Source: Epibacterium ulvae
GTDB lineage: Bacteria > Pseudomonadota > Alphaproteobacteria > Rhodobacterales > Rhodobacteraceae
Direction: 5' to 3'
DNA: 64,000 nucleotides
NCBI RefSeq assembly: GCF_900102795.1
Contig: NZ_FMWG01000011.1
Location: 1 to 64,000 of the forward strand
Made by a program: the position numbers and the translations under genes. This document shows, in pieces, positions 14,286-29,514 of the stretch. The notes under the pieces were generated by a model. The model did no database searches, was not told the DNA's origin, and saw only the letters and a program-made list of their open reading frames with translations. Positions within the stretch are counted from its first letter, which is position 1. Every line of letters starts with the position of its first letter.

Positions 14286-14357
14286 GTGATACCTGCCTTC
14301 AAATGAATGAAGGCCTGTGATCTATGACTTTTTTGGGAGAAACTAGAGTAACTGGGG

Positions 14358-14375
14358 TTTGTAACATGTTACAAA
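14358..14375. promoter_or_regulatory. Perfect 18-bp palindrome TTTGTAACATGTTACAAA
   Basis: A perfect palindrome in the 117-bp gap between the TPR protein gene and the two small genes on the same strand. The form TGTAAC-AT-GTTACA suits a dimeric helix-turn-helix repressor (TetR-like symmetry). It lacks the T-run expected of a terminator. Confidence 0.5.
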
Positions 14376-14402
14376 ATAGTTTTTCTGTTTTGAATCAGAA
14401 CC

Positions 14403-16064
14403 TTAATCTTTTCCTAAAGCTTCCTTAAGTGCGACGTAGGGTTCGATAAAAAGCTCAGGTTTCGGGTTTTCTGAACAGAGCCTTGGGATCGTGTTGTCAA
14501 CGTAGTAGCTGGAAGAAAACTTTGACCAACTGATGTCATGCTGTTCAATCACCTGTGCGGCGTCTTCAGGACGTCCTAATTTATTCAGGACCATTGCGCG
14601 GCGCATAAAGGTGTAGGGAATTTGAAAAATCAGGGCGGCCTGTTCTTCGACTGCGAGGGCTTTTTCCCATTCTTGGCGATAACTGTGGAGCCAGCCCGTC
14701 CACGTGAGTGTCAACCATCGGATAGGATTATCAGGCGACAGTGCAGCATCAAAAGCGATTGCAGCCTCCACAACAGAATCGGGTGCCGTTTCGCATGTGT
14801 AAGGCACCACCAAATGTAAGAAGCGCGCTAAATCATGAGAACTATCCAGTTCAATAACGCGGCGCATTGTGGCGTGACTTTCGGCGATACGACCGCTGTG
14901 CCAATGAGATTGCGCAACATTGAAAACCACATCTGGATCAAGGGGGGAGAGCTCCATTGCACGCCGGGCGTGATACTCTGCCGCCTGTCGATTCTCGGCT
15001 GTGTCAGCGGGGCCATACACGTTTGACAGATATGCAAGCTTGTCCGCCAATACAGAGTGCGCCGCGCCGAAATTGGGATCTTTTTCGAGCGCCAATCGTG
15101 CCAGATGAATACGCTCTTCTTCCCAATCGATGCTAGATTGCGCAGGTCCAGGCACCCAGGTTGAAAGGACAAACAAGGCTTCGGGTGACATATCCTCTAG
15201 CGCCATGGTTTCAAGAACGCTTTTTGAAGCGCCAAATAATCGGACACGCAATTCGCGAGCGATACGTGTCTCGGCGAGGTCTAACTGCTCTTGCATGTCT
15301 GATGAGAAAAAGCTTTTGCCCCAGATGACGCGTGTTGTATCGGCGTCTCTCAACTCAACCAATGTGCGGAATCCGTGGGTGTCTTCAAACATCTGTAAAG
15401 ACAATAAAAAAGTTGTTGCGGACCTCGTGGCGATTGCCTCTTCCATATTATCCACCACACGGATGGTATCGGAACGTGATAACGATTGTGCAAGCAGGCT
15501 GCGCACCGCTTGCCCATGCGCGGTTTCATGATCCGATTGGGGCAGGGCTACTGTTAATGTTGCTTCTGATGGCCGGGTTTGTTCGACGAGCTGGTACCAA
15601 ACGGACAAAACAATCGTCAGAACCGCGAGCAGGGCACCCAAAGCGAGCCACCACCGATTATTTGTCTTAGGCGGAGACTGCAAAACAGGGGTGGGGGTGC
15701 TTTGTTCTGGGGATGCAGTGGGGGTCGTGCGCAGGGATACTACAGGCCGGTAAGTCCCAAGAGGAATGTTTACTTCTATACGTGTCTCGGAAAAGTTGCT
15801 GGCCTCAAATAAGGCGATTGCTGCCCGTAAACGCCCCATTTCAACGCGCACAACGCTGTCAGTGGAAGGGTCAAATTGTTCTGGTTTGCCGAAAATATCA
15901 AGACCAATGGAATAGGCTTTGAGCCGCTCGCCTGCGCCTTCTTGTTCAGAGCGCAGCAAATGTTCCAGCAGGCGTTTGCGCCGCTTGCTCCGTCCTAGCA
16001 CGCCCGAAGCCTCGATCTGCGACATATATTCTAGAATATCATTGTCGCTAAACAGCTGTGCCAT
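14403..16064 (-). CDS. Membrane-anchored TPR protein with CadC/cyclase-like N-terminal domain
   Basis: A 553-residue protein. Residues 1-110 carry the conserved block KAYSIGLDIFGKPEQFDP, VVRVEMGRLRAAI and IPLGTYRP, seen at the N-terminus of a large alphaproteobacterial group of TPR proteins often labelled adenylate cyclase although no cyclase domain is present. A single membrane segment follows (about 138-160). The rest is extracytoplasmic or cytoplasmic TPR-like helices (HARRAMELSPLDPDVVFNVAQSHWHSGRIAES, about 365-400). It looks like a one-component membrane sensor or scaffold. Whether the N-terminal domain binds DNA is unproven. Two small genes follow downstream. Confidence 0.75.
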   Translation of the reverse strand: MAQLFSDNDILEYMSQIEASGVLGRSKRRKRLLEHLLRSEQEGAGERLKAYSIGLDIFGKPEQFDPSTDSVVRVEMGRLRAAIALFEASNFSETRIEVNIPLGTYRPVVSLRTTPTASPEQSTPTPVLQSPPKTNNRWWLALGALLAVLTIVLSVWYQLVEQTRPSEATLTVALPQSDHETAHGQAVRSLLAQSLSRSDTIRVVDNMEEAIATRSATTFLLSLQMFEDTHGFRTLVELRDADTTRVIWGKSFFSSDMQEQLDLAETRIARELRVRLFGASKSVLETMALEDMSPEALFVLSTWVPGPAQSSIDWEEERIHLARLALEKDPNFGAAHSVLADKLAYLSNVYGPADTAENRQAAEYHARRAMELSPLDPDVVFNVAQSHWHSGRIAESHATMRRVIELDSSHDLARFLHLVVPYTCETAPDSVVEAAIAFDAALSPDNPIRWLTLTWTGWLHSYRQEWEKALAVEEQAALIFQIPYTFMRRAMVLNKLGRPEDAAQVIEQHDISWSKFSSSYYVDNTIPRLCSENPKPELFIEPYVALKEALGKD

Positions 16065-16501
16065 TCATCGGACCTTTCGCGCTTTCGGTTGCTTTGGAAG
16101 ATAGTTACATTTTTCCTCTCTTGCGCCAATGTATGTTTGCGTTGGTTTTTGAAATGACCCTATGCAAGGGATCGCTACGATAGATATTTGTCTCGTTTGG
16201 ACCTGGGCTGATCAATACCTGTATTGATTTGCGCTGCGGGATCAAACGAACCTGTCTTTTTTGTTGTCAGGTTCTAGAGGACGGGAGACATGTTTATAAC
16301 TGGCAGCTAAATATCTGCGATTTGTGCGGAAATGCCGTTCCTATTCAATCCGGAATTTCGAATATATATAACAATATTAAGAGGTTAGAGATGTTAGTCC
16401 AATTTTCTGCGTTGCTTTCAGAATAATTACGGAGGCTCAGACGTTTTCAATAGGCCAGCCGCGATTTTGTATTTTGCCTGGTTAAATGGAAAGGAGCCGG
16501 T
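16065..16501. other. 437-bp intergenic control region of the 16.5-27 kb cluster
   Basis: This lies between the divergent TPR gene and the cluster. It holds a perfect 8-bp inverted repeat with 2-bp spacer (16211-16228) and a second inverted repeat GAACCTG/CAGGTTC (16248-16254 and 16268-16274, 13-nt loop). A possible 11-codon ORF at 16391-16426 is preceded by AAGAGG. The cluster start at 16502 has a good AAAGGAG. Nothing else is recognisable. Confidence 0.6.
16211..16228. promoter_or_regulatory. Inverted repeat ATCAATAC-CT-GTATTGAT, candidate operator
   Basis: Two perfect 8-bp arms with a 2-bp spacer, 274 bp upstream of the first gene of the 16.5-27 kb cluster and 147 bp upstream of the divergent TPR gene. 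It is a plausible binding site for a dimeric regulator of either gene. The protein is unknown. Confidence 0.5.
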
Positions 16502-17230
16502 ATGGGGATTGTCACACAAGAAAGCGTCAAGGCTGTTCCACCGTCGCCAGTCCGGTCTTTTCTTTGGGCGGCTCTTTTGGGGGGGATGTGTCTGGTAGGC
16601 CTGAGCTGGGTGTTTATTCAAGCGCAACTGCTGTCTTTGATATTGGGTTTGCTCTTTTATATGGCAGTCGCCGCGTGGATGGCGATGCGCATGCAGCAGT
16701 TTTATCCGCATACTGTGTTGGGCTTGTGCAATCTGGTGACGTTAGCGCGCCTTGTTTTGGTTGCGGTTCTGTTTGTGGGGCTGATCGCTGCGGAGCCGGT
16801 GAGCTGGGCAGGGTTCTGCCTTGCGTTTGTTGCGCTTTCACTCGATGGAATTGATGGCTGGCTTGCCCGAAAACAGGGCCTGTCCTCAACGTTTGGAGCA
16901 GCCTTTGATATGCAGGTGGACGCATTGCTTGGGCTGGTGCTTGCGCTTTCGGCGGCCTTAAACGCGGGAGCGGGTGTGGCGGTGATCTTTTTGGGGCTGC
17001 CCTATTATCTGTTTGTGCTGGCAGGTGTGTTTCTGCCCTGGCTGAATGCCCCCCTGCCGGACAGGTTCAGCCGCAAGGCGGTTTGTGTAGCCCAGATCGC
17101 GGTGCTGATATTTCTGCAAATGCCAGTCTTTGCCAATGGGACTTTGGATGTTCTGGTGATGCTCGTCGTCTGTGCTTTGATCTGGTCGTTTGGACGTGAT
17201 ATTTTGTGGCTGAAGCGAGCACAGCCATGA
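16502..17230 (+). CDS. CDP-alcohol phosphatidyltransferase
   Basis: A 242-residue integral membrane enzyme with about six hydrophobic segments. The family signature is complete: DGIDGWLAR ... G132 ... D136 ... D140, starting at Asp115 (DGx2ARx8Gx3Dx3D). Such enzymes transfer the phosphatidyl or related group from a CDP-linked alcohol to an acceptor alcohol. The acceptor (glycerol phosphate, inositol phosphate, or other) cannot be read. It opens the cluster and overlaps the next gene by ATGA. Housekeeping pgsA or pssA would not be expected in this company. Confidence 0.88.
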   Translation: MGIVTQESVKAVPPSPVRSFLWAALLGGMCLVGLSWVFIQAQLLSLILGLLFYMAVAAWMAMRMQQFYPHTVLGLCNLVTLARLVLVAVLFVGLIAAEPVSWAGFCLAFVALSLDGIDGWLARKQGLSSTFGAAFDMQVDALLGLVLALSAALNAGAGVAVIFLGLPYYLFVLAGVFLPWLNAPLPDRFSRKAVCVAQIAVLIFLQMPVFANGTLDVLVMLVVCALIWSFGRDILWLKRAQP

Positions 17231-18867
17231 GCACGCAGGTAAAACCGGTGACGCGTGCGAGAGTTGTGTCTGTGCTCTTGTCAGCTTTGCTGCTGCATCT
17301 TGTGCTTGTCTTACCAAACTATCCACCTGCTCTGACTTGGGGGCGTTTGGTTTTGGCTCCGCTTGAGCTGCCGTTGGTTTTGTGCGTGTTGCTTGCGATG
17401 CCACGCTGGCAGGTTTTGCGCGTGTTTCTGGTGGCGCTGCTGTCGTTGATTGTGGTCATGAAACTGGCCGATCTGGGAATGTTCACGGCGTTAAACCGGC
17501 CCTTTAATCCTGTTGCTGATTATCCCTTGCTTGGCTCTTTGGTTGATCTGGGGGCTGGAGCGTTTGGGCGGGGCGCTGCCTGGGCTGCGGTTGCGCTTTG
17601 CATCTGCGCATTGATTGCTCTGATCTGGAGTTTGTGGTGTAGCACCGGATATTGGATGCGCCTGTCGCGTCCCCGCTGGAGTGCATATGTTTTTGGTGTG
17701 ATTGCAACCGGGCTGTTTGGCCTGATTGTTATGGACGTGGGCGCGCAGAAGAAGCTTTGGGAAGCACCTTTTGCGATCTTTGGCACCAGCAGCACAACGC
17801 GCTTTACGGTCAATCGAGTACAGACGGTTCATCGCACTTTGACCGAATGGCAGGTGTTTAAAGCGGCTGTTGCAAATGATCCCCTGTTGGATCAGCCAGA
17901 TTTATTGGCCGGGATCGATCGCGATGTTTTGGTCATCTTTGTGGAAAGCTATGGTCGTACCAGTCTGGACACGCCTTATTACGCTGAACTGCATCGCCGC
18001 ACATTGGAAGAGGCCGAAGACCGGCTGGGTGCCTTGGGTCTGTCGATGGCGTCAACAATCCTGACATCTCCGACGCGGGGTGGGCAAAGTTGGCTGGCGC
18101 ATTCGACGTTTTCGAATGGGCTTTGGATTGATGATCAAATTCGTTACCGGGCGGCCTTGACCAGCGGGCGGCAGACCTTGTTTCATTTGGCGCAACGGGC
18201 GGGATTACAAACCGGAGCCGTGATGCCGCAGATTACATTGGACTGGCCCGAAGCGCAGTTTATGGGGTTTGATACTGTGCTTGCAGCCAAGGATCTGGGG
18301 TATGCCGGGAAACCCTTTAACTGGGTTACGATGCCGGATCAGTTTACTTTCGCAGCGATGGATCGCCTGTTGCGCGCGCCCAATCGGGACGGACCGATGA
18401 TGATCCAGATGGCGCTAGGTTCGTCCCATGCGCCGTGGGTGCCGGTGCCTGAACTGGTGGCGTGGGAGACGATTGGCGATGGTCGGATCTATGATCCGGT
18501 GGTCGAAGCGGGTGCGACGCCGCGTGAGGTTTGGAAAGATCACGATCGGGTGCGCGCGCAGTATAAGCGGGCGGTTGATTATGCGTTACAAACGGTTATG
18601 GCCTATGCCGAACTTCATGCCAAAGATCCGCCTTTGATGATTATTGTCGGGGATCATCAGGCTGCTGGCTTTGTCGCGCTGGAAGAGCGCGCAGATGTTC
18701 CGATGCATGTGGTTGGTCCAAAACATTTGGTTGATGCAATTGCGGATGTACAATTTTATCAAGGCCTTACGCCTCCTGCAGCAGCTGAACCACGTTTGAT
18801 GGATGAAATGCGCGCACATCTTGTGCAGGCGCTTTCTTTTGTTGGAACAGGGGCGCTTGTACGATGA
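17227..18867 (+). CDS. Sulfatase/alkaline phosphatase-superfamily membrane enzyme (LtaS- or EptA-like)
   Basis: A 546-residue protein. Four to five membrane segments fill residues 10-175, followed by a periplasmic alkaline-phosphatase-fold domain. Metal-site motifs are visible: VIFVESYGRTS and the late IVGDHQAAG. This layout is shared by lipoteichoic acid synthases, phosphoethanolamine transferases and related enzymes that move phospho-head groups onto acceptors outside the membrane. The start at 17227 overlaps the preceding stop by ATGA. Its partner genes suggest it transfers a head group made with the phosphatidyltransferase. Donor and acceptor are unknown. Confidence 0.8.
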   Translation: MSTQVKPVTRARVVSVLLSALLLHLVLVLPNYPPALTWGRLVLAPLELPLVLCVLLAMPRWQVLRVFLVALLSLIVVMKLADLGMFTALNRPFNPVADYPLLGSLVDLGAGAFGRGAAWAAVALCICALIALIWSLWCSTGYWMRLSRPRWSAYVFGVIATGLFGLIVMDVGAQKKLWEAPFAIFGTSSTTRFTVNRVQTVHRTLTEWQVFKAAVANDPLLDQPDLLAGIDRDVLVIFVESYGRTSLDTPYYAELHRRTLEEAEDRLGALGLSMASTILTSPTRGGQSWLAHSTFSNGLWIDDQIRYRAALTSGRQTLFHLAQRAGLQTGAVMPQITLDWPEAQFMGFDTVLAAKDLGYAGKPFNWVTMPDQFTFAAMDRLLRAPNRDGPMMIQMALGSSHAPWVPVPELVAWETIGDGRIYDPVVEAGATPREVWKDHDRVRAQYKRAVDYALQTVMAYAELHAKDPPLMIIVGDHQAAGFVALEERADVPMHVVGPKHLVDAIADVQFYQGLTPPAAAEPRLMDEMRAHLVQALSFVGTGALVR

Positions 18868-19790
18868 ATGTGATGGCTTCTGTCAAAGGGGTCTTTGCAG
18901 CGCCCTGGATGAAAATTGCTGTTGCTGTCGCGATCTTGGCGCTGTTGTGGCGCAATACAGATGGGGTGGCCATCAGCCGGGCTGTGGCGCAGGCGGATCT
19001 GGGTTGGCTCACCTTTGCGGTGGTTTTATTGATTGCACAAACGCTGCTTTCTGCGGTGCGTTGGCAGGTCACTGCGGCAGCTTTGGGGCAAGTGTTTCCT
19101 TATCCTTACGCCGTGCGAGAATATTTTCTGTCGCAGGTTATCAATCAGGCTGTACCCGGAGCTGTTGTCGGCGATGCCACTCGTGCGGTGCGTGCTGGAC
19201 ATCAGACAGGTTTAGGTTTGTCTGGCGTGGCTGTGGCGCTTGAACGTTTGGCTGGGCAGATCGCAATGTTTTTCACGTTGGCGATTGGGTTTGGACTGTC
19301 TTTACTGATCGACACGCCGTTGATCTGGCCGAGCGGAACACGCGCTCTTGTGGGGTTGATTATTTGCGCCATTTTTGCGGGGCTGATGGTCTGGGTTGCG
19401 TTGACCTATAGGTATGGTGCAGGGCAGGGACGTTTTGCAAGCGTTGTGCAAAGCGTCAGACAGGCCTTTGGGACACAACAGGTGATCCGGGCGCAGGTTG
19501 CCTTGGGGGGGATGATCACCTTGTGTAACATTGGTGCGTTTGCTGCCTGCGTTGCTGCTGTTGGTGGTGTTTTGCCGATGTTGGCCGTGCTTATTTTGGT
19601 GCCTTTGGTTCTATTTGCCATGCTTGTGCCGCTGACCATCAGCGGATGGGGTCTGCGTGAAGGTGCCGCAGCCGCGGTGTTGCCGATCGCAGGGATCAGC
19701 GTGATTGAGGCAATCGCCGCAAGCATCCTGTTTGGGGTGGCGATCCTTATCGCTGCAATCCCAGGTTTATTCACAATAGGAAAATCATGA
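18864..19790 (+). CDS. Lysylphosphatidylglycerol synthase-type transmembrane (flippase-like) protein
   Basis: A 308-residue protein with about eight membrane segments matching the LPG_synthase_TM/UPF0104 family (LLSAVRWQVTAAALG, YFLSQVINQAVPGAVVGDATRAVRA, GWGLREGAAAAVLP). Members flip or shelter lipid-linked intermediates. It has no aminoacyl-transferase domain, so it is the membrane part only. The start overlaps the previous stop by ATGA. In this operon it may translocate a lipid-linked product. Confidence 0.85.
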   Translation: MNVMASVKGVFAAPWMKIAVAVAILALLWRNTDGVAISRAVAQADLGWLTFAVVLLIAQTLLSAVRWQVTAAALGQVFPYPYAVREYFLSQVINQAVPGAVVGDATRAVRAGHQTGLGLSGVAVALERLAGQIAMFFTLAIGFGLSLLIDTPLIWPSGTRALVGLIICAIFAGLMVWVALTYRYGAGQGRFASVVQSVRQAFGTQQVIRAQVALGGMITLCNIGAFAACVAAVGGVLPMLAVLILVPLVLFAMLVPLTISGWGLREGAAAAVLPIAGISVIEAIAASILFGVAILIAAIPGLFTIGKS

Positions 19791-20866
19791 AATTTCAGCG
19801 TGTTGCCTTTGCCGTTCCCGGTGATCTGACCACAAAAACCGGGGGATACATCTATGACCGTCGCCTGATTGATGAATTGCGCGTATTGGGTTGGGAGGTT
19901 GATCATATTGCATTGCCTGATGGGTTTCCCAATCCGACGTCTGAGCAGATGGCAGAGGCGTTTTCGCAGCTTTGCGCTATTGCTCCAGATTGCCCGGTCA
20001 TCATCGACGGGCTTGCCTTTGGCGCATTGGATCCAGAGCGTGTTGCGCAGATCAAAGCGCCAATCGTAGCACTGGTTCATCATCCGCTTGCAAAGGAAAG
20101 CGGCCTTGCTTCTGATCTGGCGCGCGCATTTCATGACACGGAGCGCCGCAATTTGGGGCAGGTGCAGCATGTTCTTGTGCCAAGCCGACATACGGCAGAG
20201 ATCCTGATGAACGAATATGCGATTGCGTCAGATAAGATCGCAATCGCAGCACCCGGATTGGATCACCCATGTGATCCCCCGCAATCGCAAGACCCGCCTT
20301 TGATCCTGTCTGTTGGCATTCAATTGCCACGAAAAGGGCATGATACGTTGCTGCGGGCCCTTGCGCAGATCACGGATCTGAATTGGCAGGCCGTTATTGT
20401 GGGCGCGCCCCTTGATACGGCTTATGCCCAAGATCTGCAGGCGCTGCGGGGCGCGCTGGGGCTTGAAGAGCGTGTTAATTTTGCAGGGCTGATCGAACGT
20501 TCGGATCTGGAACGGTATTATCGACAGGCCAGCCTTTTTGCGCTTGCGACGCGTTACGAAGGCTATGGGATGGTCTTTGACGAAGCCCTGATCAATGGTT
20601 TGCCAATTGTGAGCTGCGATACCGGGGCCGTTCCTGATACCGTGCCACAAGATGCAGGATTTCTGGTCCCGCCGGATCGGCCAGAGGCCTTTGCAGAGGC
20701 CTTGCGCCGTCTTCTGACCAAGCCCGAATTGCGGGAAGAACTGCATAAGGCGGCCCAAGATCACGGTCTGCGGCGTCAACTTTGGGCCGAGACAGCGCAA
20801 AGTGTAGAAGCAGCGTTGCAGCCCGTTTTTGCGGTGGCCCAATCCCAAAAGAGGGCTGTGATATGA
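19787..20866 (+). CDS. Glycosyltransferase family 4
   Basis: A 359-residue GT-B glycosyltransferase. The C-terminal donor domain has the E-x7-E motif (RYEGYGMVFDEALINGLP) and VSCDTGAVPDTV; the N-terminus has the TGGYIYDRRLIDELRVLGWEV acceptor-side pattern. It should transfer a sugar from an activated donor to an acceptor in the cytoplasm. The start overlaps the flippase gene by ATGA. Donor and acceptor are not deducible. Confidence 0.9.
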   Translation: MKFQRVAFAVPGDLTTKTGGYIYDRRLIDELRVLGWEVDHIALPDGFPNPTSEQMAEAFSQLCAIAPDCPVIIDGLAFGALDPERVAQIKAPIVALVHHPLAKESGLASDLARAFHDTERRNLGQVQHVLVPSRHTAEILMNEYAIASDKIAIAAPGLDHPCDPPQSQDPPLILSVGIQLPRKGHDTLLRALAQITDLNWQAVIVGAPLDTAYAQDLQALRGALGLEERVNFAGLIERSDLERYYRQASLFALATRYEGYGMVFDEALINGLPIVSCDTGAVPDTVPQDAGFLVPPDRPEAFAEALRRLLTKPELREELHKAAQDHGLRRQLWAETAQSVEAALQPVFAVAQSQKRAVI

Positions 20867-21627
20867 CGCGGGCGACATTGTTAAAGCGCTCCTTTGATGT
20901 TTATTACCGTGATCCTGTGCGCCGTGCGCGGATGGATCAGCTGAACGCGTTATGTGTGCCTAAAGGTGGTCTTGCCTTTGATATTGGTGCGCATGTCGGG
21001 GATCGAACTGGCAGTTTCTTGCGGCTTGGAGCGCGGGTGGTCGCGCTTGAGCCGCAACCGCGGGTCTTTCGTGCGTTGCGTCTGATTTATGGCCGCCAGC
21101 CAAAGATCACGCTTGAGCGCAAAGCTGTTGGTGCAAGCGTCGGCACGGTGCCTTTTTTTGTGAATTCAGCCAATCCGACCATTAGTACGGCTTCAACTGA
21201 ATTAATCGATGCAGCCCAGGCTGCACGGGGCTGGCAGGGGCAAGACTGGGATCACCAGATTGATGTGTCTGTGATTCGGCTGGATGATTTGATCGCCAAA
21301 TATGGCATCCCAGATTTTATTAAGATTGATGTAGAAGGATATGAAGCCGATGTGCTGCGCGGGTTGAGCCATCCTGTGCCGCTGTTGTCCTTTGAGTTCA
21401 CTACAATTCAGCCAAAGATTACAATCCAGTGCCTTCAAATTCTGTCCGCGCTGGGGGCGTATGAATTCAACTACAGTCTGGGCGAAGAGCACCGGTTAGA
21501 GCACGCGTGCTGGCAGGATCTGGAGAGCCTGCAGAGCGAATTGCTGGCTTTGCCTGAGGTGGCAAATTCGGGTGATGTTTTTGCCCGCCTGCGCCCGGGT
21601 GAAAAAAATGCAGAACCGCGGGAATAA
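20863..21627 (+). CDS. FkbM-family methyltransferase
   Basis: A 254-residue SAM-dependent methyltransferase with motif I FDIGAHVGDRTGSFLRLGARVVALEPQP (about 34-61) and the FkbM block DFIKIDVEGYEADVLRGL. The ATG at 20863 overlaps the glycosyltransferase stop (ATGA), so the longer frame from 20782 is not used. FkbM proteins methylate hydroxyl groups, often on sugars, which fits the preceding glycosyltransferase. Confidence 0.9.
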   Translation: MTRATLLKRSFDVYYRDPVRRARMDQLNALCVPKGGLAFDIGAHVGDRTGSFLRLGARVVALEPQPRVFRALRLIYGRQPKITLERKAVGASVGTVPFFVNSANPTISTASTELIDAAQAARGWQGQDWDHQIDVSVIRLDDLIAKYGIPDFIKIDVEGYEADVLRGLSHPVPLLSFEFTTIQPKITIQCLQILSALGAYEFNYSLGEEHRLEHACWQDLESLQSELLALPEVANSGDVFARLRPGEKNAEPRE

Positions 21628-21685
21628 TCTGCGCGCCTGAAACGTTTCCTATCTGAACGCCTTTGTTGATTGGGGGAGCCACGCG

Positions 21686-22231
21686 ATGCCAGAGAGTAAG
21701 AAACACCGTCCGTTTGCACGGTTTATGCATTGGGGCATGGCGATTTTGGTTGTTGGAATGATCGCGATTGGTTTTGTGATGATCCAAAAGGGCTTGCCAC
21801 GTCCAGTGCAGAATTTCCTGTTTATCACCCATAAAAATCTGGGCGTGTTGATGCTGGTTTTGATTGTGGTGCGAATGGCCTATCGCTGGCTGCGCCCACC
21901 TGAGCTGGCACCAGTTGCGCTGCCACCTGTGCAACGCATGGCGGCGCATCTCAGCCATCTGGGGCTTTATCTGCTGCTGCTTATCATGCCGCTGGCGGGG
22001 TATATTCGTGTGCGCGCAGGAGGGTTCCCGATCGAGTTTCTGGATCAATTGGACCTACCGACGCTGGTGCCACGTTCCAAAGAGTTAGCGGCTGCGGCAA
22101 AAGCAGTTCACTATTACGGATCTTATGCGCTGGCGGGGCTTGTCCTGTTGCATATTGCGGCGGCTGCCTATCATGGGCTGATCAAACGCGACGGTGTGAT
22201 GTCACGCATGTGGCCCCCGATCGGCAAGTAA
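21686..22231 (+). CDS. Cytochrome b561
   Basis: A 181-residue membrane cytochrome with four hydrophobic segments (about 15-32, 46-64, 87-106, 145-165). Histidines in RFMHWG, THKNLG, HLSHLG and VLLHIAAAAYHG suit haem b coordination in the bacterial CybB-like family. These proteins move electrons between quinols and periplasmic or cytoplasmic acceptors, including superoxide. It sits 58 bp after the FkbM gene on the same strand, and its place in a biosynthetic cluster suggests a redox step. Confidence 0.85.
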   Translation: MPESKKHRPFARFMHWGMAILVVGMIAIGFVMIQKGLPRPVQNFLFITHKNLGVLMLVLIVVRMAYRWLRPPELAPVALPPVQRMAAHLSHLGLYLLLLIMPLAGYIRVRAGGFPIEFLDQLDLPTLVPRSKELAAAAKAVHYYGSYALAGLVLLHIAAAAYHGLIKRDGVMSRMWPPIGK

Positions 22232-22283
22232 CCCTCATAAAATAAACGATAGGCCATGTGCCTCACTTCATCTGGAGAAGAAT

Positions 22284-22679
22284 ATGTTTGCTGTAGAAGT
22301 TCGGGATCACATTATGATTGCTCACTCTCTGCCCTCCCCCGTTTTTGGCCCGGCTCAGGGCATGCATGGTGCGACCTTTGTGGTCGATGCGGCCTTTTTC
22401 ACTGACAGTCTGGATGACAACGGGCTGGTGGTTGATATGGGGCTTGCGCTTGATGCTTTGGCTGAGGCTCTGGCCCCGTTGAAATATGCCAATCTGGATG
22501 AGGTACCTGAATTCAAAGGGAAAATAACCACAACAGAATTTTTGTGTCACCACATCTGGCAACAACTGCGTGACGCGGTAAAGACCACGGGCCTTGGGGC
22601 AGGGGACCGGGTGCGCCGGATCAAGGTTTCATTACATGAAAGCCACACAGCCCGTGGTTGGTATGAGGCAGATATCTGA
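22284..22679 (+). CDS. PTPS/QueD-like pterin enzyme, divergent active site
   Basis: A 131-residue T-fold protein related to 6-pyruvoyl-tetrahydropterin and 6-carboxytetrahydropterin synthases. His14 and His28 match two zinc ligands. The usual HGH triplet is His28-Gly-Ala (GMHGATF), so the third zinc ligand is missing, and the family's catalytic cysteine about four residues earlier is absent as well. The VVDMG aspartate and late LHESHTA glutamate/histidine remain. It probably binds a pterin or pyrimidine but may do different chemistry from QueD. The start follows GGAGAAG; the stop overlaps the next start as TGATG. Confidence 0.8.
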   Translation: MFAVEVRDHIMIAHSLPSPVFGPAQGMHGATFVVDAAFFTDSLDDNGLVVDMGLALDALAEALAPLKYANLDEVPEFKGKITTTEFLCHHIWQQLRDAVKTTGLGAGDRVRRIKVSLHESHTARGWYEADI

Positions 22680-23455
22680 TGGGGTTTTCCTCTGAATGGC
22701 TCGCTTTGCGGGAACCTGCAGATCATGCTGCGCGGGATGCATCCTTGTTGCAGCGGGTTGCAGATTTTGTGGGGCCGCAAGCAACGGTTTTGGATCTGGG
22801 CAGCGGGACCGGGTCCACGGTGCGGGCGTTTCAGGGGGTTGATATTGGCCAGTGGCGCTGGCGGTTTGTGGACAGTGATCCTGTGCTTCTTGCAGAGGCA
22901 ACATCCCGTCATACAAGGGCTGAAGCCCATATGATGAATTTGCAGGATCTTGAGGATCTTCCGCTGAATGGGGTCTCTTTGGTGACTGCTTCGGCGCTGC
23001 TGGACCTGATGCCGGACCGTTGGATTGCGGCATTGGCCCAGCGATTGGCCGCGGCGCAGATCCCCTTTTATGCGGCGCTGAATTATAACGGTGACATGCG
23101 CTGGTCGCCGGGTCTGACACAAGACAAGGCGATCCGGGATGCCTTTAACAGGCACCAAAACACGGACAAAGGCATCGGTGCCGCGACCGGTGCCGCGTCA
23201 GCGCAGGTGACACAATCACGTTTTGAGGAACATGGATTTCAGGTGCATCTCGCAGAGAGCCCCTGGGTGCTTGACCCTAAGGAACAAGCGTTGCAGCGCG
23301 ACTTATTGGGCGGAATTGCGCAAGCGGCGGATGAGATGGGTGCCGCGGCTGCGTCACACTGGTTTGAAGAGCGTCAGGCGAGCCTTGCAACCGGTCAAAC
23401 AGTGATCGGCCATACGGATGTCTTGGCGCTTCCCTGCGTTCAGAGTTTGAACTGA
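22679..23455 (+). CDS. Class I SAM-dependent methyltransferase
   Basis: A 258-residue Rossmann methyltransferase with motif I VLDLGSGTGSTVRAF (37-51) and an acidic VDSDPVLLAEA segment. The sequence is not assignable to a known substrate class. It overlaps the PTPS-like stop by one base (TGATG), so the two are translationally coupled. Methylation of the pterin- or pyrimidine-like product is a reasonable inference. Confidence 0.85.
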   Translation: MGFSSEWLALREPADHAARDASLLQRVADFVGPQATVLDLGSGTGSTVRAFQGVDIGQWRWRFVDSDPVLLAEATSRHTRAEAHMMNLQDLEDLPLNGVSLVTASALLDLMPDRWIAALAQRLAAAQIPFYAALNYNGDMRWSPGLTQDKAIRDAFNRHQNTDKGIGAATGAASAQVTQSRFEEHGFQVHLAESPWVLDPKEQALQRDLLGGIAQAADEMGAAAASHWFEERQASLATGQTVIGHTDVLALPCVQSLN

Positions 23456-23506
23456 ATGCCAAGATCACGACCCGAACTTTGCCCGAGATCCTGAAGGAGC
23501 AACAGA

Positions 23507-24307
23507 ATGCAAAATGTCGATGTCAGCGCGCGGGTCTGGTCGCATCTTCTTGCGCTCAAAGAGGGTGCGAATGGCACGCCAGATGTGACGTGGACCGAAG
23601 GTGAAGCGCAGGCCTTGGCGCTGTATGGCCCGCTGGCGGCCCCGGTTGATGATGTGATGATTGTTGCGCAGATTGGACAGTCTTTGGATGGGCGGATCGC
23701 CACCGAAAGCGGAGATGCGCAGGATATTTCAGGGCCAGAAGGTCTGGCGCATTTACATCGTTTGCGGGCGCTGGCGGATGCGGTGGTGGTGGGGGTGAAA
23801 ACCGCGCTGCATGATGATCCGCAGCTGACAGTGCGTTTGGCTTATGGGGAGAGCCCGGCGCGTGTTGTGATCGATCCCAAAGGGCGGTTGTGTAATTCCG
23901 CGCGATTGCTGCAGGATACTTCGACACGCCGTATCGTGGTGCAAAGTTGCGAAACTGATCGCCCGGCTGGTGTTGAAACCCTGATATTGCCGCGCACGGA
24001 CTGGATCTGCGCGCATGAGATGATCATGGCGCTGCGGGAACTTGGCTTTCGCAGGATCCTGATCGAAGGCGGTGGGGTCACGATTGCCCAATTCCTAGAG
24101 GCGGGTCTGTTGCATCGTTTGCATGTAGCTGTTGCGCCCTTGTTGATCGGGTCCGGTCCACAATCCCTGACAACCAACCCTGTGCCCACATTGGCCGAGG
24201 CGTTACGACCTGAAACGCGATTCTACAATCTTGGCAGTGATGTGCTGTTTGATTGTGCCTTAAATCCACATATCGCTGGTGAGAAAGAGAGAGTTTTCAA
24301 TGTTTGA
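23507..24307 (+). CDS. RibD C-terminal-type (dihydrofolate reductase-fold) reductase
   Basis: A 266-residue protein. Residues about 50-230 match the RibD reductase domain: QSLDGRIATESG, HRLRALADAVVVGVKTALHDDPQLTVR and RRILIEGGGVTIAQFLEAGLLHRLHVAVAPLLIGSG. RibD reductase reduces the ribosyl side chain of the pyrimidine made from GTP by RibA. The N-terminal deaminase domain of full RibD is missing, replaced by about 50 unrelated residues. The stop overlaps the ribA start by 8 bp. Either a standalone riboflavin-type step or a dedicated variant. Confidence 0.85.
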   Translation: MQNVDVSARVWSHLLALKEGANGTPDVTWTEGEAQALALYGPLAAPVDDVMIVAQIGQSLDGRIATESGDAQDISGPEGLAHLHRLRALADAVVVGVKTALHDDPQLTVRLAYGESPARVVIDPKGRLCNSARLLQDTSTRRIVVQSCETDRPAGVETLILPRTDWICAHEMIMALRELGFRRILIEGGGVTIAQFLEAGLLHRLHVAVAPLLIGSGPQSLTTNPVPTLAEALRPETRFYNLGSDVLFDCALNPHIAGEKERVFNV

Positions 24308-25421
24308 CCCTTTTGCCTCTCTTGGGCTTTCCGTTACCGAACAATTGGAACGCGCACGGACCGATTTACGTATGGGGTTGCCCTGCCTGCTGTTAGATCG
24401 GGCGCAATCTGGTGTAATGGTCGCGCTTGAGACGGTTTCGCCCCAACGTTTCAATGCTTTGCGTGATATGTTGGGAGAACCAGAGCTGGTTCTGACAGCG
24501 CATCGGGTGCGTGCGATCTCTACCGACGCGGTTGCGGCGGGTGTGCAGGGGCAGATTCTGCGGGTTCGTCCACCAGAACAGGCTGATCTGGACTGGTTCA
24601 GATCTCTTTCGGATCCTGATTTGGATGATCTCAATACGCCAATTGGCCCTTTGCATATTCTTCGGGATGCGGTGCCATCGTTACATTCGGTTGCAATTGA
24701 TTTGGTGAAATCAGCAGAGCTGTTGCCTGCTGCTGCGGTTTTTCCGGTGCTTCAAGAGGGTGATTTGCAGCGTGTAAAAGCGGTGTTGTCGGCGCTGGAT
24801 GTAGACGAAATGGCGGCGACGCTTGCTGCAGGGGCTGCCATGATGCCTGTGTCTGCTGCATTCTTACCATTGGAAAGCCACGAAAACAGCAAGCTGCATG
24901 TTTTTCGCGACCCTGAAGGCGGGCAAGAGCACTATGCGATTGAAATTGGCGCGCCGGATCGGAACAAGCCCGTTTTATCCCGGTTGCATTCTGCCTGTTT
25001 TACCGGGGATGTTCTTGGATCACTGAAATGCGATTGCGGACCTCAATTGCGCGCGGCGCTGGAACAGATGGGTGCCGAAGGGGCTGGGGTTCTTTTGTAT
25101 CTAAACCAAGAAGGGCGCGGCATTGGGCTGGCCAATAAAATGCGGGTATATGCGCTGCAATCCAAAGGGTTGGATACTGTAGAGGCCAATCATCGGCTTG
25201 GATATGAAGATGATGAACGTGATTTTCGCACAGCAGCCTGGATGCTGCGAGAACTTGGTTTTGATGCGGTGCGCCTGTTGACCAACAATCCTGCCAAAGT
25301 TGAAAGCTTTCAGAATTCTGGCATCAACATTGTTGAGCGCCTGCCGCTGCGCGTTGGAAAAAGTTTACATAATCAACATTATCTATCGGTGAAAGCATTG
25401 AAATCGGGGCACCAGCTATGA
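24300..25421 (+). CDS. ribA: GTP cyclohydrolase II (RibA) with non-canonical N-terminal domain
   Basis: A 373-residue protein. Residues about 195-370 are a complete GTP cyclohydrolase II: zinc cysteines Cys233, Cys244, Cys246 (HSACFTGDVLGSLKCDC), LNQEGRGIGL, and TVEANHRLGYEDDERDFRTA. It opens GTP to a diaminopyrimidine ribotide. The first 190 residues are not a recognisable DHBP synthase, so it is not a RibBA bifunctional enzyme. The ATG at 24300 is used (GAGAGAG upstream); it overlaps the reductase gene by 8 bp and the MDR gene by ATGA. Confidence 0.9.
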   Translation: MFDPFASLGLSVTEQLERARTDLRMGLPCLLLDRAQSGVMVALETVSPQRFNALRDMLGEPELVLTAHRVRAISTDAVAAGVQGQILRVRPPEQADLDWFRSLSDPDLDDLNTPIGPLHILRDAVPSLHSVAIDLVKSAELLPAAAVFPVLQEGDLQRVKAVLSALDVDEMAATLAAGAAMMPVSAAFLPLESHENSKLHVFRDPEGGQEHYAIEIGAPDRNKPVLSRLHSACFTGDVLGSLKCDCGPQLRAALEQMGAEGAGVLLYLNQEGRGIGLANKMRVYALQSKGLDTVEANHRLGYEDDERDFRTAAWMLRELGFDAVRLLTNNPAKVESFQNSGINIVERLPLRVGKSLHNQHYLSVKALKSGHQL

Positions 25422-26386
25422 CGGCTTTAAACACGTCAGAGGCGCTTTGGATCACGGCGCCAGAGATGGCCGATTTTGCACCGGGTGCCGTGATGACTGG
25501 CCCCAATACCCTAAGCGTTCAAACGCTTTATTCTGGCATCAGTCGTGGGACTGAGCAGCTGGTGTTCAAAGGAAACGTGCCACAGGGTGAACACGACACT
25601 ATGCGGGCCCCCTTTCAGGAAGGCGTTTTTTCTTTTCCTGTCAAATATGGCTATAGCGCAGTTGGACGCATCGAAACTGGAGCGCGCCAAGGTGAAACAG
25701 TATTTGCCCTGTTCCCCCATCAACGCCGCTTTGCGCTAGAGAGCACGGCACTTATTCCGGTGCCCGCTGATGTCACCGCCGCGCGGGCGGTTTTGGCGGC
25801 GAATATGGAAACCGCGCTGAATATCACCTGGGATGCTGCAATTGGCATTGGCGATCGTGTGGTTGTTGTTGGTGGCGGTGTGGTTGGCGCGCTGGTGGCT
25901 TATCTGGCGACACGGGTCGCGGGCACATCGGTCACTTTGGTTGATATTAATCCAGCGCGACAGAAGCTTGCCACGGCATTTGGGTGTGCCTTTTCCCTGC
26001 CACAGGATGCGCCAAATGATGCTGATGTTGTTATACATACATCCGCAACTGCGGCTGGTCTTGCGACCGCCATTCAGGCGGCTGGGGTCGAAGCGGTTGT
26101 GATCGAAGCCAGCTGGTATGGCAATCAATCTGTGCCTGCGCCACTGGGAGGGCGGTTTCATCAACGTCGCCTAAAACTGGTGAGTTCGCAGGTTGGCCGT
26201 ATCCCGGCAGTCCGGGCTGCGCGGTGGACGTATCAGCGGCGGCTTTCGCAGGCGCTCTCGCTTCTTGCAGATCCTGTATTGGATGATCTTATTTCGGGTG
26301 AGACATCTTTTGATAACCTTGCAACGGAATATGCAGGAATTCTGAGCAATCCACACACATTATGCCATCGGGTGCGGTATGACTGA
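25418..26386 (+). CDS. Medium-chain dehydrogenase/reductase (zinc-type alcohol dehydrogenase-like)
   Basis: A 322-residue MDR-family protein with a Rossmann glycine motif VVVVGGGVVGALVAYLA and acidic DINPARQKLA. The N-terminal half (YSGISRGTEQLVFKG, GYSAVGRIETG) is of the type seen in bacteriochlorophyllide and sugar-type oxidoreductases. The usual GHE zinc motif is absent, so it may not need catalytic zinc. It overlaps both neighbours (ATGA with ribA and 8 bp with the phosphatase gene), so it is fixed in this operon. Substrate unknown. Confidence 0.85.
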   Translation: MTALNTSEALWITAPEMADFAPGAVMTGPNTLSVQTLYSGISRGTEQLVFKGNVPQGEHDTMRAPFQEGVFSFPVKYGYSAVGRIETGARQGETVFALFPHQRRFALESTALIPVPADVTAARAVLAANMETALNITWDAAIGIGDRVVVVGGGVVGALVAYLATRVAGTSVTLVDINPARQKLATAFGCAFSLPQDAPNDADVVIHTSATAAGLATAIQAAGVEAVVIEASWYGNQSVPAPLGGRFHQRRLKLVSSQVGRIPAVRAARWTYQRRLSQALSLLADPVLDDLISGETSFDNLATEYAGILSNPHTLCHRVRYD

Positions 26387-27212
26387 TGCTTTCGCTTCTT
26401 CTAACGCCTCTCTACCGGCTTCAGCCTCGCCTTTGTTGCGGGATATGGCGCATGTGGCCTATCTGGCGGGTGAAGCACTTGTTGGCTTTGCGAAAGATCG
26501 CAGTGCTTTGACGTTGCAAGAAAAAACAGCGGGTGATTTCGTCAGCTCTGCGGATCTGAAATCAGAAGCAATCATCGCCGATTGGCTGAAAACACGCTAT
26601 CCAGATTTTGGCTGGGTGGGCGAAGAGACAGGCGCGCAGATTACCGGTTTCGATGAACCCTATTGGGTTGTTGACCCTTTGGATGGTACCAGTAATTTTC
26701 TGAAAGGATTACCGCATTGGGCTGTGTCCATCGCCTTGTGCAAAGGGGACGCCCCCATAGCGGCGATCGTTTATGATCCTGTAAAGGAAGAACTTTTCTC
26801 GGCAGAACGCGGATGTGGTGCGTTTTTGAATGGCGCCCGGATATGGGTCAATTCAGATATCAGCCTCAGCACGGCCATATTGGCGACGGGGGTGCCTGCG
26901 GGGGGACGTGTGACCTACCTGTCTGATTGTCTTATGGATTTGGAACAGCTCATGCCCAAAAGCGCGGGTATACGGCGCTGGGGCGCAGCTGCGCTGGATC
27001 TTGCATATGTTGCCGCGGGGCGTCTGGATGCCTATTGGGAACGCAATCTCGGGCCGTGGGATATCGCGGCTGGGTGGTTGCTGGTTCAGGAAGCAGGCGG
27101 CTGCGTCGAGCCGCTTTGGAGCGGGGAGCCAATATTGAAATCGGGGTCGTTTTTGGCGGGCGACGCTGCCTTGTTGCGACAAGTCCACCCCTATCTAACG
27201 CCGAAACATTAG
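26379..27212 (+). CDS. Inositol monophosphatase-family phosphatase
   Basis: A 277-residue phosphatase of the IMPase/CysQ/HisN superfamily. Metal-binding motifs are complete: GEETG (81-85), VVDPLDGTSNF (97-107; Asp99, Asp102) and the C-terminal GPWDIAAGWLLVQEAGG. It should remove a phosphate monoester from a small cytoplasmic substrate. In an operon starting from a GTP-derived ribotide, removal of the 5'-phosphate, which the riboflavin pathway also needs, is an attractive role but unproven. The last gene of the overlapping run. Confidence 0.88.
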   Translation: MTDAFASSNASLPASASPLLRDMAHVAYLAGEALVGFAKDRSALTLQEKTAGDFVSSADLKSEAIIADWLKTRYPDFGWVGEETGAQITGFDEPYWVVDPLDGTSNFLKGLPHWAVSIALCKGDAPIAAIVYDPVKEELFSAERGCGAFLNGARIWVNSDISLSTAILATGVPAGGRVTYLSDCLMDLEQLMPKSAGIRRWGAAALDLAYVAAGRLDAYWERNLGPWDIAAGWLLVQEAGGCVEPLWSGEPILKSGSFLAGDAALLRQVHPYLTPKH

Positions 27213-27276
27213 CGACATGAGGTGAAATGCTCCTTGTGATGTGAGAGAGCGTTGCCGATCAAGAGGTTGAAGGTTG

Positions 27277-27846
27277 ATGACTTTTGCGTCAAACATGATC
27301 ATCTATTTGCGCCCTACGCTCTGGAAACGGCTGGAAACACTTGTGTCTGCATTGATGAAAAAGGACTTGATAGCGCTTCTTCCGCGCTTGCGTCGTTTCG
27401 CCTGTTCTTTGACCCTGTCCGTATCTGATGCTGATGATCTTGTGCAAGAAGCCTGTCTGCGCGCGCTGAGCCGATCTGATCAGTGGAAGCCTGACCAACC
27501 CTTTGATTTCTGGATGTTTCGCCTGACACGGAACCTATGGATTTCAGAAATTCGCAAGCAGAAGGTTCGTTTTGGAAAAGGGCAGATCCCCGCAGAAGAA
27601 AGTGCAGAACTTGTTCAACATGACACTGGTGAAGATCGGTTGGCTGCTGTTCAACTGTTAGGCCGGGTTGGTGCGTTGCCGTCAGAGCTTGCAGTGGTGT
27701 TGGTTGCGGTTTCAGTCGAGGGCTACAGCTATAGTGAAACCGCGGAGTTGCTTGATATTCCGATTGGAACGGTCATGAGCAGAGTCCATCGTGCGCGCAA
27801 GATGCTGGCGCATCAGATTGCGGCTCAGGCGGAGGGTGTCGAATGA
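27277..27846 (+). CDS. ECF-type RNA polymerase sigma factor
   Basis: A 189-residue sigma factor with region 2 (DADDLVQEACLRAL ... FDFWMFRLTRNLWISEIRKQK) and region 4 (ALPSELAVVLVAVSVEGYSYSETAELLDIPIGTVMSRVHRARKML). The ATG at 27277 has AAGAGG and AAGG upstream; an ATG at 27355, starting MKKDLIALLPRL, gives a more standard N-terminus and may be the true start. Its stop overlaps the next gene by ATGA, an anti-sigma factor. It lies 64 bp after the phosphatase gene. Confidence 0.9.
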   Translation: MTFASNMIIYLRPTLWKRLETLVSALMKKDLIALLPRLRRFACSLTLSVSDADDLVQEACLRALSRSDQWKPDQPFDFWMFRLTRNLWISEIRKQKVRFGKGQIPAEESAELVQHDTGEDRLAAVQLLGRVGALPSELAVVLVAVSVEGYSYSETAELLDIPIGTVMSRVHRARKMLAHQIAAQAEGVE

Positions 27847-28631: not shown

Positions 28632-28786
28632 TCTCGCAGAGTTGACGCGTCATGGCCAATGTTGCGAAGGTTCAAAGAGCTTGAATCCACAACGAATAAA
28701 ATATCGGCGTCTTTATCGGCGAAAGTATTGATAAAAATTTGGATCTTCTCTCTGCGAACGCAATTTTCGACAAAAGGGTTCATTTG

Positions 28787-29503: not shown

Positions 29504-29514
29504 TAATCTCAGCT

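Follow-up and report, generated by a model that had tools for sequence, protein, structure and literature searches.

A run of genes at 16502–27212 of the window (the whole 64,000-nucleotide stretch that we analyzed) shares with the riboflavin pathway the first enzyme, RibA, and the reductase domain of RibD, and places both among lipid and glycan genes. This raises the question of whether the run serves the riboflavin route of the cell or makes a molecule of its own. We favor, at a probability of about 0.5, a single operon that builds an envelope molecule from GTP, apart from riboflavin.

In the ORF list of the window, the locus is a single tight run of 12 plus-strand ORFs (Table 1), as a sequence-only reading of this DNA had described, with junctions, based on the listed ORF starts, of −25, −4, −4, −4, 58, 52, −1, 51, −29, −4, and −8 bp in gene order. 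The tight spacing noted in that reading stands, but its tally of nine of 11 close junctions does not, as every one of the 11 is either an overlap or a gap of no more than 58 bp. It had also named the families of 11 genes correctly and left the twelfth, cytochrome b561, unnamed. No FMN, molybdopterin, or preQ1 riboswitch or RNA element was matched in Rfam at E ≤ 1 across 14000–30000, and motif scans returned 5 promoter-like sites (7.8 expected) and 20 terminator-like sites (17.8 expected), numbers too near expectation to be informative.

Table 1. Genes of the run, 5' to 3', with their profile matches.
Product	Coordinates	Strand	Profile match
CDP-alcohol phosphatidyltransferase, 242 aa	16502..17230	+	PF01066 (CDP-OH_P_transf), 50.8 bits
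Membrane alkaline-phosphatase-fold enzyme, 553 aa, alternative ATG at 17227	17206..18867	+	PF00884 (Sulfatase fold), 39.4 bits
LPG_synthase_TM flippase-like protein	18864..19790	+	PF03706, 111.6 bits
GT4 glycosyltransferase	19787..20866	+	PF00534, 116.6 bits
FkbM-family methyltransferase	20863..21627	+	PF05050, 66.2 bits
Cytochrome b561, loosely associated	21686..22231	+	PF01292, 103.8 bits
PTPS-IV (FGPAQ) T-fold protein, altered active site	22284..22679	+	PF01242, 76.8 bits
Class I SAM methyltransferase (MT)	22679..23455	+	PF13649, 30.1 bits
Stand-alone RibD_C pyrimidine reductase, without deaminase domain	23507..24307	+	PF01872, 128.4 bits
RibA, GTP cyclohydrolase II, degenerate N-terminal half, alternative ATG at 24300	24279..25421	+	PF00925 (GTP_cyclohydro2), 191.3 bits
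BchC-like MDR dehydrogenase, NAD-binding, without zinc motifs	25418..26386	+	TIGR01202 (bchC), 46 bits
Inositol-monophosphatase-family phosphatase (IMPase)	26379..27212	+	PF00459 (Inositol_P), 197.1 bits

Profile searches confirmed the earlier observation that the operon holds no intact RibB, lumazine or riboflavin synthase, or RibD deaminase, and in this it differs from a riboflavin operon. A genome search located ribD with its deaminase, ribE, ribBA, ribH, and a second ribA outside the operon, so that these are not the only rib genes of the genome, a possibility that the sequence-only reading had wanted checked. The queuosine genes QueD-QueE-QueC likewise sit elsewhere, and FolE is absent, whereas FolE2 is present. 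Because FolE2 covers normal pterin entry and the rib and que genes lie elsewhere, neither folate nor queuosine synthesis depends on the cluster. The idea that it substitutes for a missing GTP cyclohydrolase I was accordingly dropped as a need, FolE2 being present, and kept as chemistry. Further, neither MDR, GT4, MT, nor CDP-alcohol transferase was matched in the stretches of 11–17 kb around each of the genome's own QueD, RibBA, and second RibA (C21). With the gene set also linked in relatives (see below), these results support the proposal of a dedicated pathway, and we consider it very probable that the run is not the cell's riboflavin route.

The window RibA has the residues of a GTP cyclohydrolase II (C240, C251, C253, Y291, D312, and R314, at least 93% conserved among 52 sequences), whose roles as zinc cysteines, switch tyrosine, and catalytic Asp/Arg we assume from E. 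coli RibA. A profile search at E 0.001 found no DHBP-synthase domain in it, and its N-terminal half has no counterpart of DHEDRENEGDL, which is present in the genome's own RibBA, in agreement with the suggested lack of an intact RibB. The second full-length RibA at C21, 54% identical, is degenerate in the same manner. Met at the switch position is the mark of RibA enzymes of the formylated-product type, and S. coelicolor SCO6655, a GTP cyclohydrolase II homolog, reportedly forms a formylated product through such a Met. Among the 148 loci introduced below, the position could be aligned in 61 RibAs: Tyr occupies it in 59, as it does in the window, and Met in two, both from Streptomyces and both adjoining creatininase. 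Met and creatininase occur together in the clusters of S. fungicidicus and S. globisporus. In contrast, the window combines a Tyr switch with an operon that lacks creatininase, from which we expect the canonical product, deformylated. A creatininase-family enzyme is described in a passage of PMC9478397 as a proven deformylase of the formylated RibA-type product. We dropped creatininase as a marker of switched RibA, since its presence at 10 of 59 Tyr-type loci means that no strict rule applies.

The PTPS protein is altered, as the sequence-only reading had supposed. Its residues 21–25 are FGPAQ, the signature of subfamily PTPS-IV (COG0720); across 22 sequences, F21, G22, P23, and A24 were invariant and Q25 nearly so, and A24, A30, H14, H28, E85, and E119 were invariant in all 22. 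In alignment with the genome's own QueD, AQGMHGA stands opposite CTRVHGH, and the DH of the QueD stretch NFDHRHLND is replaced. The substrate glutamate is retained, whereas the catalytic residues and one zinc histidine are lost; the combination that typifies PTPS-I/II/III, a catalytic Cys or Glu before HGH plus three zinc histidines, is lacking. The sole PDB relative found was 3d7j (118 bits), which is SCO6650 of the S. coelicolor SCO6650–SCO6655 region (Spoonamore 2006). The association of RibA, RibD, and PTPS-IV is already in print: passages of the AGeNNT paper (2017, PMC5445326) name the FGPAQ signature and include PF00925 and PF01872 among PTPS-IV neighbors. Those passages take PF00925 as folate-related and PF01872 as riboflavin-related, unlike our reading, and they name no MDR, GT4, MT, CDP-alcohol transferase, flippase, or head-group transferase, all of which the window has. 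In openly licensed literature (CC0/CC BY/CC BY-SA), we found no print record of the whole gene set, the lipid half, or a product.

The hallmark of zinc-dependent alcohol dehydrogenases is a catalytic-zinc Cys and a GHE motif; at the corresponding places, the window MDR has conserved S42-R43-G44-T45-E46 (SRGTE) and Y77-G78-Y79 (YGY) and so does not belong to that group. It keeps G152, G154, G157, and D176 for NAD binding. MDRs without zinc frequently act as C=C reductases and not as alcohol dehydrogenases; structure comparison placed polyol dehydrogenases among the fold neighbors of the window protein. Its best NCBIfam match, the bacteriochlorophyll dehydrogenase BchC, scored 46 bits, far below the cut-off of 291.25. 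Annotated records carry the name zinc-dependent alcohol dehydrogenase.

Linkage was assessed at loci picked solely for holding a PTPS-IV gene. Sampling showed this marker in 45 of 385 genomes from the class and 27 of 398 from the phylum (own genome included in both), and it was present in at least 584 confirmed stretches of the species collection. Besides the window, the set comprised 38 of the class genomes, fetched with flanks (6 left out); 20 of the phylum genomes (4, namely our own, G176, G255, and G336, were already in the set, and 3 were left out); the best 80 of the at least 584 species-collection loci; and 9 of 12 plasmid records opened from 20. L087 (PTPS just outside the fetched stretch) and L228 (a near-duplicate) were dropped before counting. 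Of 148 loci, a total that includes the window, 28 had one flank shorter than 6 kb and were dropped from presence counts, leaving 120 complete neighborhoods. MDR was present in all 120 (within 2 kb of PTPS in 114), a figure that omits two known solitary cases, L192 and L198, in which PTPS-IV relatives occur without the cluster; these and L234, which has the cluster, are the plasmid records outside the counts. Two Streptomyces PTPS-IV relatives stand alone. MT was found in 113 of 120, GT4 in 110, and stand-alone RibD_C in 90, and the RibD deaminase in none, making MDR-PTPS-MT-GT4-RibD_C the most constant core. RibA was found in only 53 (54 without overlap filtering), so that the other loci must use another RibA or the substrate differs. 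The remaining genes were less frequent: CDP-alcohol transferase in 53, cytochrome b561 in 41, FkbM in 39, flippase in 34, head-group transferase in 33, and IMPase in 17.

The GTP and lipid halves, whose linkage in other Rhodobacterales the sequence-only reading had proposed to check, were found together in Rhodobacterales and Rhizobiales, in 11 genomes from other classes within the phylum, and in Actinomycetota. The dividing line it drew between them did not survive: the conserved core spans it, and GT4 goes with MDR-PTPS-MT. At all 11 out-of-class loci, PTPS was accompanied by CDP-alcohol transferase, MDR, GT4, and MT, with flippase and RibD at 10 each, creatininase at 5, and RibA at 4, and the gene order was that of two Streptomyces plasmids, one of which yielded a RibD match. 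CDP-alcohol transferase also lies within the cluster in Streptomyces, Microbacterium, Thiodictyon, Rhizobium, and Agrobacterium plasmids, and at Streptomyces L191 an LPG_synthase_TM family gene follows MT. Raw gene-family distances, which still include species phylogeny, correlated at rho 0.44–0.85, with cytochrome b561 the weakest at 0.20–0.32. CDP-alcohol transferase occurred alone in 47 of the 120 neighborhoods, an MdoH-like GT2 alone in 36, and both in 6; as mutual replacements the two were rejected, since a test confined to independent pairs showed no significance (median p 1). A conserved sigma-factor link was also rejected, as the downstream ECF sigma gene was matched at 3 of 120 loci (L068–L187) and an anti-sigma gene at none. 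YceI, response regulator, and EEP phosphatase ORFs lie near some clusters, sporadically and rarely.

CDP-alcohol phosphatidyltransferases carry the signature DxxDGxxARx8GxxxDxxxD, which is complete in the window protein from D115 to D140 (D115-G116-D118-G119-A122-R123-G132-D136-D140, at least 93% conserved among 47 relatives); its scores lie under every NCBIfam cut-off matched (e.g. PgsA, 33.3 versus 109.1). The sulfatase-like fold of the adjacent membrane enzyme was recognized correctly by the sequence-only reading, but the protein is better likened to head-group transferases such as MCR-1 and LtaS. Its predicted structure (pLDDT 88) had MCR-1, LtaP, and LtaS as top PDB folds, with PbgA, GacH, and EptC lower, and E247, S295, D483, and H484 were invariant in 20 sequences. 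It shares membrane helices and an alkaline-phosphatase-fold domain with MCR-1/EptA and LtaS/LtaP/GacH, although identity in the fold matches is just 11–15%, and the modeled structure indicates that it is probably a phospholipid head-group transferase. Distant PDB matches of the GT4 included inositol-phosphate mannosyltransferases, PI mannosyltransferases, and a BH4 glucosyltransferase. In Actinomycetota, PI mannoside assembly has a CDP-alcohol transferase, a phosphatase, and a GT4 work one after another on a head group that is a polyol phosphate. By family membership, the window has these three gene types plus a flippase and may resemble phosphatidylinositol-phosphate synthase and PI mannoside systems; it differs in that ring enzymes starting from GTP would supply the head group and in a PIPSynth score of 20.3 of 170 bits.

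Our best reading of the product, drawn from conserved residues and from the families and order of the genes, is a 2-amino-pyrimidine or pterin polyol within an envelope lipid or glycan; attachment to a lipid or glycan has roughly even odds. RibA would convert GTP to 2,5-diamino-6-ribosylamino-pyrimidinone 5'-phosphate, and RibD_C would reduce this to the ribityl-phosphate, the 2-amino group being retained, pterin-type rather than flavin-type, because the cluster has no deaminase. MDR might then oxidize a hydroxyl on the polyol chain, and PTPS-IV might bind the ring and help closure or rearrangement to a pterin or modified pyrimidine, a ring step that we regard as doubtful. MT would add a methyl. 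Following the logic from phosphatidylinositol-phosphate to phosphatidylinositol mannoside, the polyol phosphate would be the head-group alcohol for the CDP-alcohol transferase, IMPase would strip the phosphate, and GT4 would attach a sugar; after translocation through the membrane by the flippase, the LtaS/EptA-like enzyme would transfer the head group. A bolder version, which we rate as quite unlikely, is a new membrane-lipid class of Pseudomonadota and Actinomycetota with a GTP-derived pterin (or ribityl-pyrimidine) polyol head group, made without GTP-cyclohydrolase-I and displayed as a redox- or light-active glycophospholipid. RibA, the deaminase-free RibD reductase, the zinc-free polyol dehydrogenase, and PTPS-IV would then form the route (reduce C1', oxidize C2', ring closure), and CDP-alcohol transferase, phosphatase, GT4, flippase, and the LtaS/EptA-like enzyme would assemble and display the lipid.

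The lipid genes are not universal, with 31 of 120 neighborhoods having neither CDP-alcohol transferase nor MdoH-like GT2, and this counts against the envelope operon. The low counts of RibA and IMPase, the two solitary Streptomyces relatives, and the C=C reductase activity frequent among zinc-free MDRs weigh against it as well. A possible, though less favored, alternative is a secreted or diffusible pterin or pyrimidine glycoside (cofactor, pigment, or signal) made by RibA-RibD_C-MDR-PTPS-MT-GT4, the lipid genes being frequent neighbors or belonging to an unrelated glycolipid. The constancy of the core relative to CDP-alcohol transferase, the BH4 glucosyltransferase among the GT4 matches, and plasmid locus L201, which is MDR-PTPS-MT-RibD with zero lipid genes annotated or matched, all point that way; against it, CDP-alcohol transferase and flippase take matching positions in two phyla, so that chance neighbors are hard to invoke for them. 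The patchy distribution and the 20 plasmid records, which imply that the clusters move and can be rearranged, might raise the suspicion that unrelated genes piled up by chance or that the run is an artefact of assembly or ORF calling. We give this almost no credence: a gene set common to two phyla, MDR at every counted locus, and overlapping reading frames speak against it, and recurrence already rules out a pile-up.

An accessory riboflavin or flavin-secretion operon, in which RibA and RibD_C boost precursor supply, draws on the true family membership of both proteins and on a passage of PMC9478397 hypothesizing that S. meliloti RibBA serves secreted flavins. It is highly improbable given the full housekeeping set in the genome and the 120 neighborhoods, where RibE, RibH, and RibB appear once each, all at one locus (L071), and the deaminase never. 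Moreover, no role in riboflavin synthesis is known for MDR, PTPS-IV, GT4, or CDP-alcohol transferase. Equally improbable is deazaflavin F420, queuosine, or folate synthesis, suggested by the PTPS label and by one paper that calls PTPS-IV F420-related on unpublished grounds. A PPOX-class F420-dependent oxidoreductase does lie downstream of the S. fungicidicus cluster, but F420 gamma-glutamyl ligase had no match in the own genome in a search that picked up 3 of its 14 controls, each of them an archaeon. Against queuosine, besides the separate QueD-QueE-QueC genes, QueE and QueC were absent from all 120 neighborhoods, and the four QueD matches there were the PTPS-IV gene itself; the PTPS-I/II/III motifs are also missing.

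Overall, the envelope operon that we prefer gives PTPS-IV, which records commonly mis-annotate as 6-carboxytetrahydropterin synthase with a queuosine term, a concrete setting, in which this T-fold protein with its altered zinc site stands between the RibA/RibD pair and a machinery for phospholipid head groups. The gene set recurs in two phyla, with its marker in 45 of 385 class genomes, and has no product in the openly licensed literature searched. If the link between the two functions is true, bacterial envelopes would have a new decoration, on a head group or a glycan, that may be redox-active.

The run of twelve genes proposed by the sequence-only reading proved to be real, and Pfam and NCBIfam assign its open reading frames in the window to families. 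The 11 junctions of this operon measure -25, -4, -4, -4, 58, 52, -1, 51, -29, -4 and -8 bp, and because its G+C content is 55.0% compared with 52.3 and 52.1% on either side, the operon is not strikingly foreign. The Rfam search found no element around it. The reading frame of an ECF sigma factor (Sigma70_r2/r4_2), accompanied by a weak zf-HC2 anti-sigma candidate, starts 62 bp past the last base of the operon; sigma relatives occur in 3 and anti-sigma relatives in none of 120 related loci (L068-L187). At the 5' end, the operon adjoins a divergent gene for a 553-aa protein, which has weak TPR matches and might be a candidate regulator.

Coordinates of the operon and of features in its genome and in related loci
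Feature	Location	Strand	Basis or remark
Operon, twelve genes	window, 16502-27212	+	Pfam, NCBIfam
Genes 1-6, in order: CDP-alcohol phosphatidyltransferase; alkaline-phosphatase-fold membrane protein; LPG_synthase_TM flippase-like; GT4; FkbM methyltransferase; cytochrome b561		+	Pfam, NCBIfam
Genes 7-12, in order: PTPS-type; class I methyltransferase; RibD reductase domain; GTP cyclohydrolase II; BchC-like MDR; inositol-monophosphatase-family phosphatase		+	Pfam, NCBIfam
ECF sigma factor and anti-sigma candidate	window, 27274-28631	+	
553-aa protein	window, 14403-16064	-	
FolE2	G000:C18:159395-160192		same genome
MdoH-like GT2	L180:7009-8880		example of a gene often reversed beside MDR
MdoH-like GT2	L196:9079-10881		example of a gene often reversed beside MDR
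Solitary PTPS-IV relative	L192, 12001-12399		Streptomyces plasmid
Solitary PTPS-IV relative	L198, 12001-12426		Streptomyces plasmid
PfkB-family sugar kinase/ribokinase	L200, 11997-12887		Rhodobacterales plasmid
PfkB-family sugar kinase/ribokinase	L201, 7834-8754		Rhodobacterales plasmid

The genome contains 3 GTP cyclohydrolase II, 2 RibD_C (RibD reductase domain) and 2 PTPS matches in total. On contig 29 lie the genes for riboflavin synthase, lumazine synthase, a RibD that includes the deaminase and a RibBA whose DHBP-synthase domain is complete, and another RibA, sharing 54% identity with that of the operon, is on contig 21. Rib genes therefore exist outside the operon as well, which supports the earlier claim of a dedicated, non-riboflavin gene set. 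Contig 20 carries QueC-QueD-QueE. FolE (PF01227) gave no match in this genome in a search that was positive in 11 of 14 control genomes; FolE2 is present. No F420 ligase was found in the genome.

An even sample of 385 genomes of the class yielded operon-type PTPS relatives in 45 (E up to 1e-15), and a profile search of 398 sampled genomes of the phylum yielded them in 27 (E up to 1e-20), the genome itself being included both times; a species collection scan gave at least 584 confirmed stretches with such relatives, the best 80 of which were retained. The mapping of the window's 12 proteins covered 40 fetched loci, 80 named loci, loci on plasmids and another 20, of which 11 come from genomes placed outside the class and inside the phylum. 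After one near-duplicate and one stretch missing its PTPS gene were dropped, 148 loci remained, including the window, and presence (tblastn E up to 1e-5 inside the fetched stretch, conditional on the PTPS gene) was counted in the 120 that are flanked by 6 kb or more on each side. The label and reading frames of one locus, L128, from a MAG labelled Aquiluna sp., look doubtful because its cluster PTPS is 65% identical to that of the window and several of its genes appear in split tblastn pieces.

The core of the 120 neighbourhoods consists of the MDR (120, in 114 of them no more than 2 kb from the PTPS gene), the class I methyltransferase (113), GT4 (110, within 2 kb in 97) and RibD_C (90). RibA and the CDP-alcohol transferase were each found in 53 (RibA in 54 on a recount without the overlap filter, the others unchanged), followed by MdoH-like family-2 glycosyltransferase (GT2, 42), cytochrome b561 (41), FkbM (39), flippase (34), the "sulfatase"-labelled putative head-group transferase (33), the inositol-monophosphatase-family protein (17) and creatininase (16). 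In the recount, RibE, RibH and RibB each occurred once, all in locus L071, and a RibD deaminase in none of the 120, so the 2-amino group would be expected to stay. Ribokinase relatives occur in 5 of the set of 120 loci L068-L187; two Rhodobacterales plasmids have a sugar kinase or ribokinase beside the cluster.

The GTP-derived and lipid halves, as had been proposed, are linked in relatives. All 11 loci outside the class carry the CDP-alcohol transferase, MDR, GT4 and methyltransferase; the flippase and RibD are each present in 10 of them, a creatininase in 5 and RibA in 4. The order there is CDP-alcohol transferase (reverse), MDR-PTPS-GT4-MT-flippase, RibD (reverse), and RibA and creatininase where present. 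The same order occurs in Streptomyces fungicidicus (L191) and S. globisporus (L199), with RibD found only in the latter, and a mixed gene set also lies on plasmids of Microbacterium (Actinomycetota) and Candidatus Thiodictyon (Gammaproteobacteria). Xanthobacter autotrophicus DSM 432 (L175) has the cluster as well. Weighing against the linkage are PTPS-IV relatives without the cluster on two Streptomyces plasmids, and one Rhodobacteraceae plasmid with MDR-PTPS-MT-RibD and no lipid gene annotated or matched. The solitary Streptomyces genes have MEKHLA, cupin and MBL-fold genes nearby, a different PTPS-IV setting. The MdoH-like GT2, often reversed beside the MDR, lies in 36 of its 42 loci without a CDP-alcohol transferase, which suggests an alternative glycan acceptor; this either/or pattern was not significant once phylogeny was considered.

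An FGPAQ signature, named in PMC5445326, marks the operon PTPS protein as PTPS-IV, and PMC5041015 calls PTPS-IV function F420-related, as an unpublished result. A structure of this type of protein exists for SCO6650 (3d7j) of Streptomyces coelicolor. Compared with QueD of the same genome, Ala stands in place of the Cys of CTRVHGH and of the last His of HGH (the latter Ala is A30, unchanged in 22 of 22), and the QueD loop has lost its Asp-His pair, whereas H14, H28, E85 and E119 are retained. RibD_C is a reductase domain alone. The MDR keeps the Rossmann glycines and the acidic residue for NAD, and its zinc-ligand places read SRGTE and YGY. Among many other MDR folds, its model (mean pLDDT 94) is closest to polyol dehydrogenases at 13-18% identity: L-idonate 5-dehydrogenase and butanediol dehydrogenase come first, and the dehydrogenases of sorbitol, xylitol and arabinitol rank lower. 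The CDP-alcohol transferase has the full motif. The "sulfatase" model (pLDDT 88) best matches MCR-1, LtaP and LtaS, then PbgA, GacH and EptC, with true sulfatases ranked lower.

In the alignment, the operon RibA keeps the metal cysteines, a tyrosine at the place of E. coli Tyr105 and the Asp/Arg pair, whose catalytic and metal roles we take to be those of E. coli RibA. Among 61 RibAs of the 148 loci aligned at this switch position, 59 have Tyr and 2 have Met, the latter being the two Streptomyces loci with the cluster (LRAM, LQAM), where a creatininase gene adjoins RibA. Such an odd Streptomyces RibA has reportedly been described in print: SCO6655, with Met at the switch place, is said (Spoonamore, 2006) to yield a formylated product. 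In Sinorhizobium, according to PMC9478397, a creatininase-family enzyme deformylates the formylated RibA-type product. Because the two-gene swap has the same expected outcome, it points to the ring-opened GTP product as the true pathway entry point, but it is suggestive and not proof since creatininase also occurs in 10 of the 59 Tyr-type loci.

From this entry point, RibA and RibD_C would yield a diamino-pyrimidinone bearing a 5-phosphorylated ribityl chain. CDP-alcohol transferases use polyol phosphates or polyols such as glycerol-3-phosphate and inositol-phosphate. The phosphatase, GT4 and flippase-type protein may act next, much as in phosphatidylinositol mannoside assembly. The simplest joint reading is that the GTP-derived ring on its polyol would form a glycophospholipid head group, or that the LtaS/EptA-like enzyme would transfer the ring from lipid to glycan. 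As a guess compatible with the residues, the MDR might oxidise the chain while PTPS-IV holds the ring, which could allow ring closure to a pterin through the 5-amino group, independently of GTP cyclohydrolase I.

The association of PTPS-IV with RibA and RibD_C is already in print (PMC5445326); no description of the whole gene set or of its lipid half was found in the open-licence literature. There is a small chance that the product is a categorically new lipid class. Overall, the results support well a dedicated pathway separate from riboflavin.
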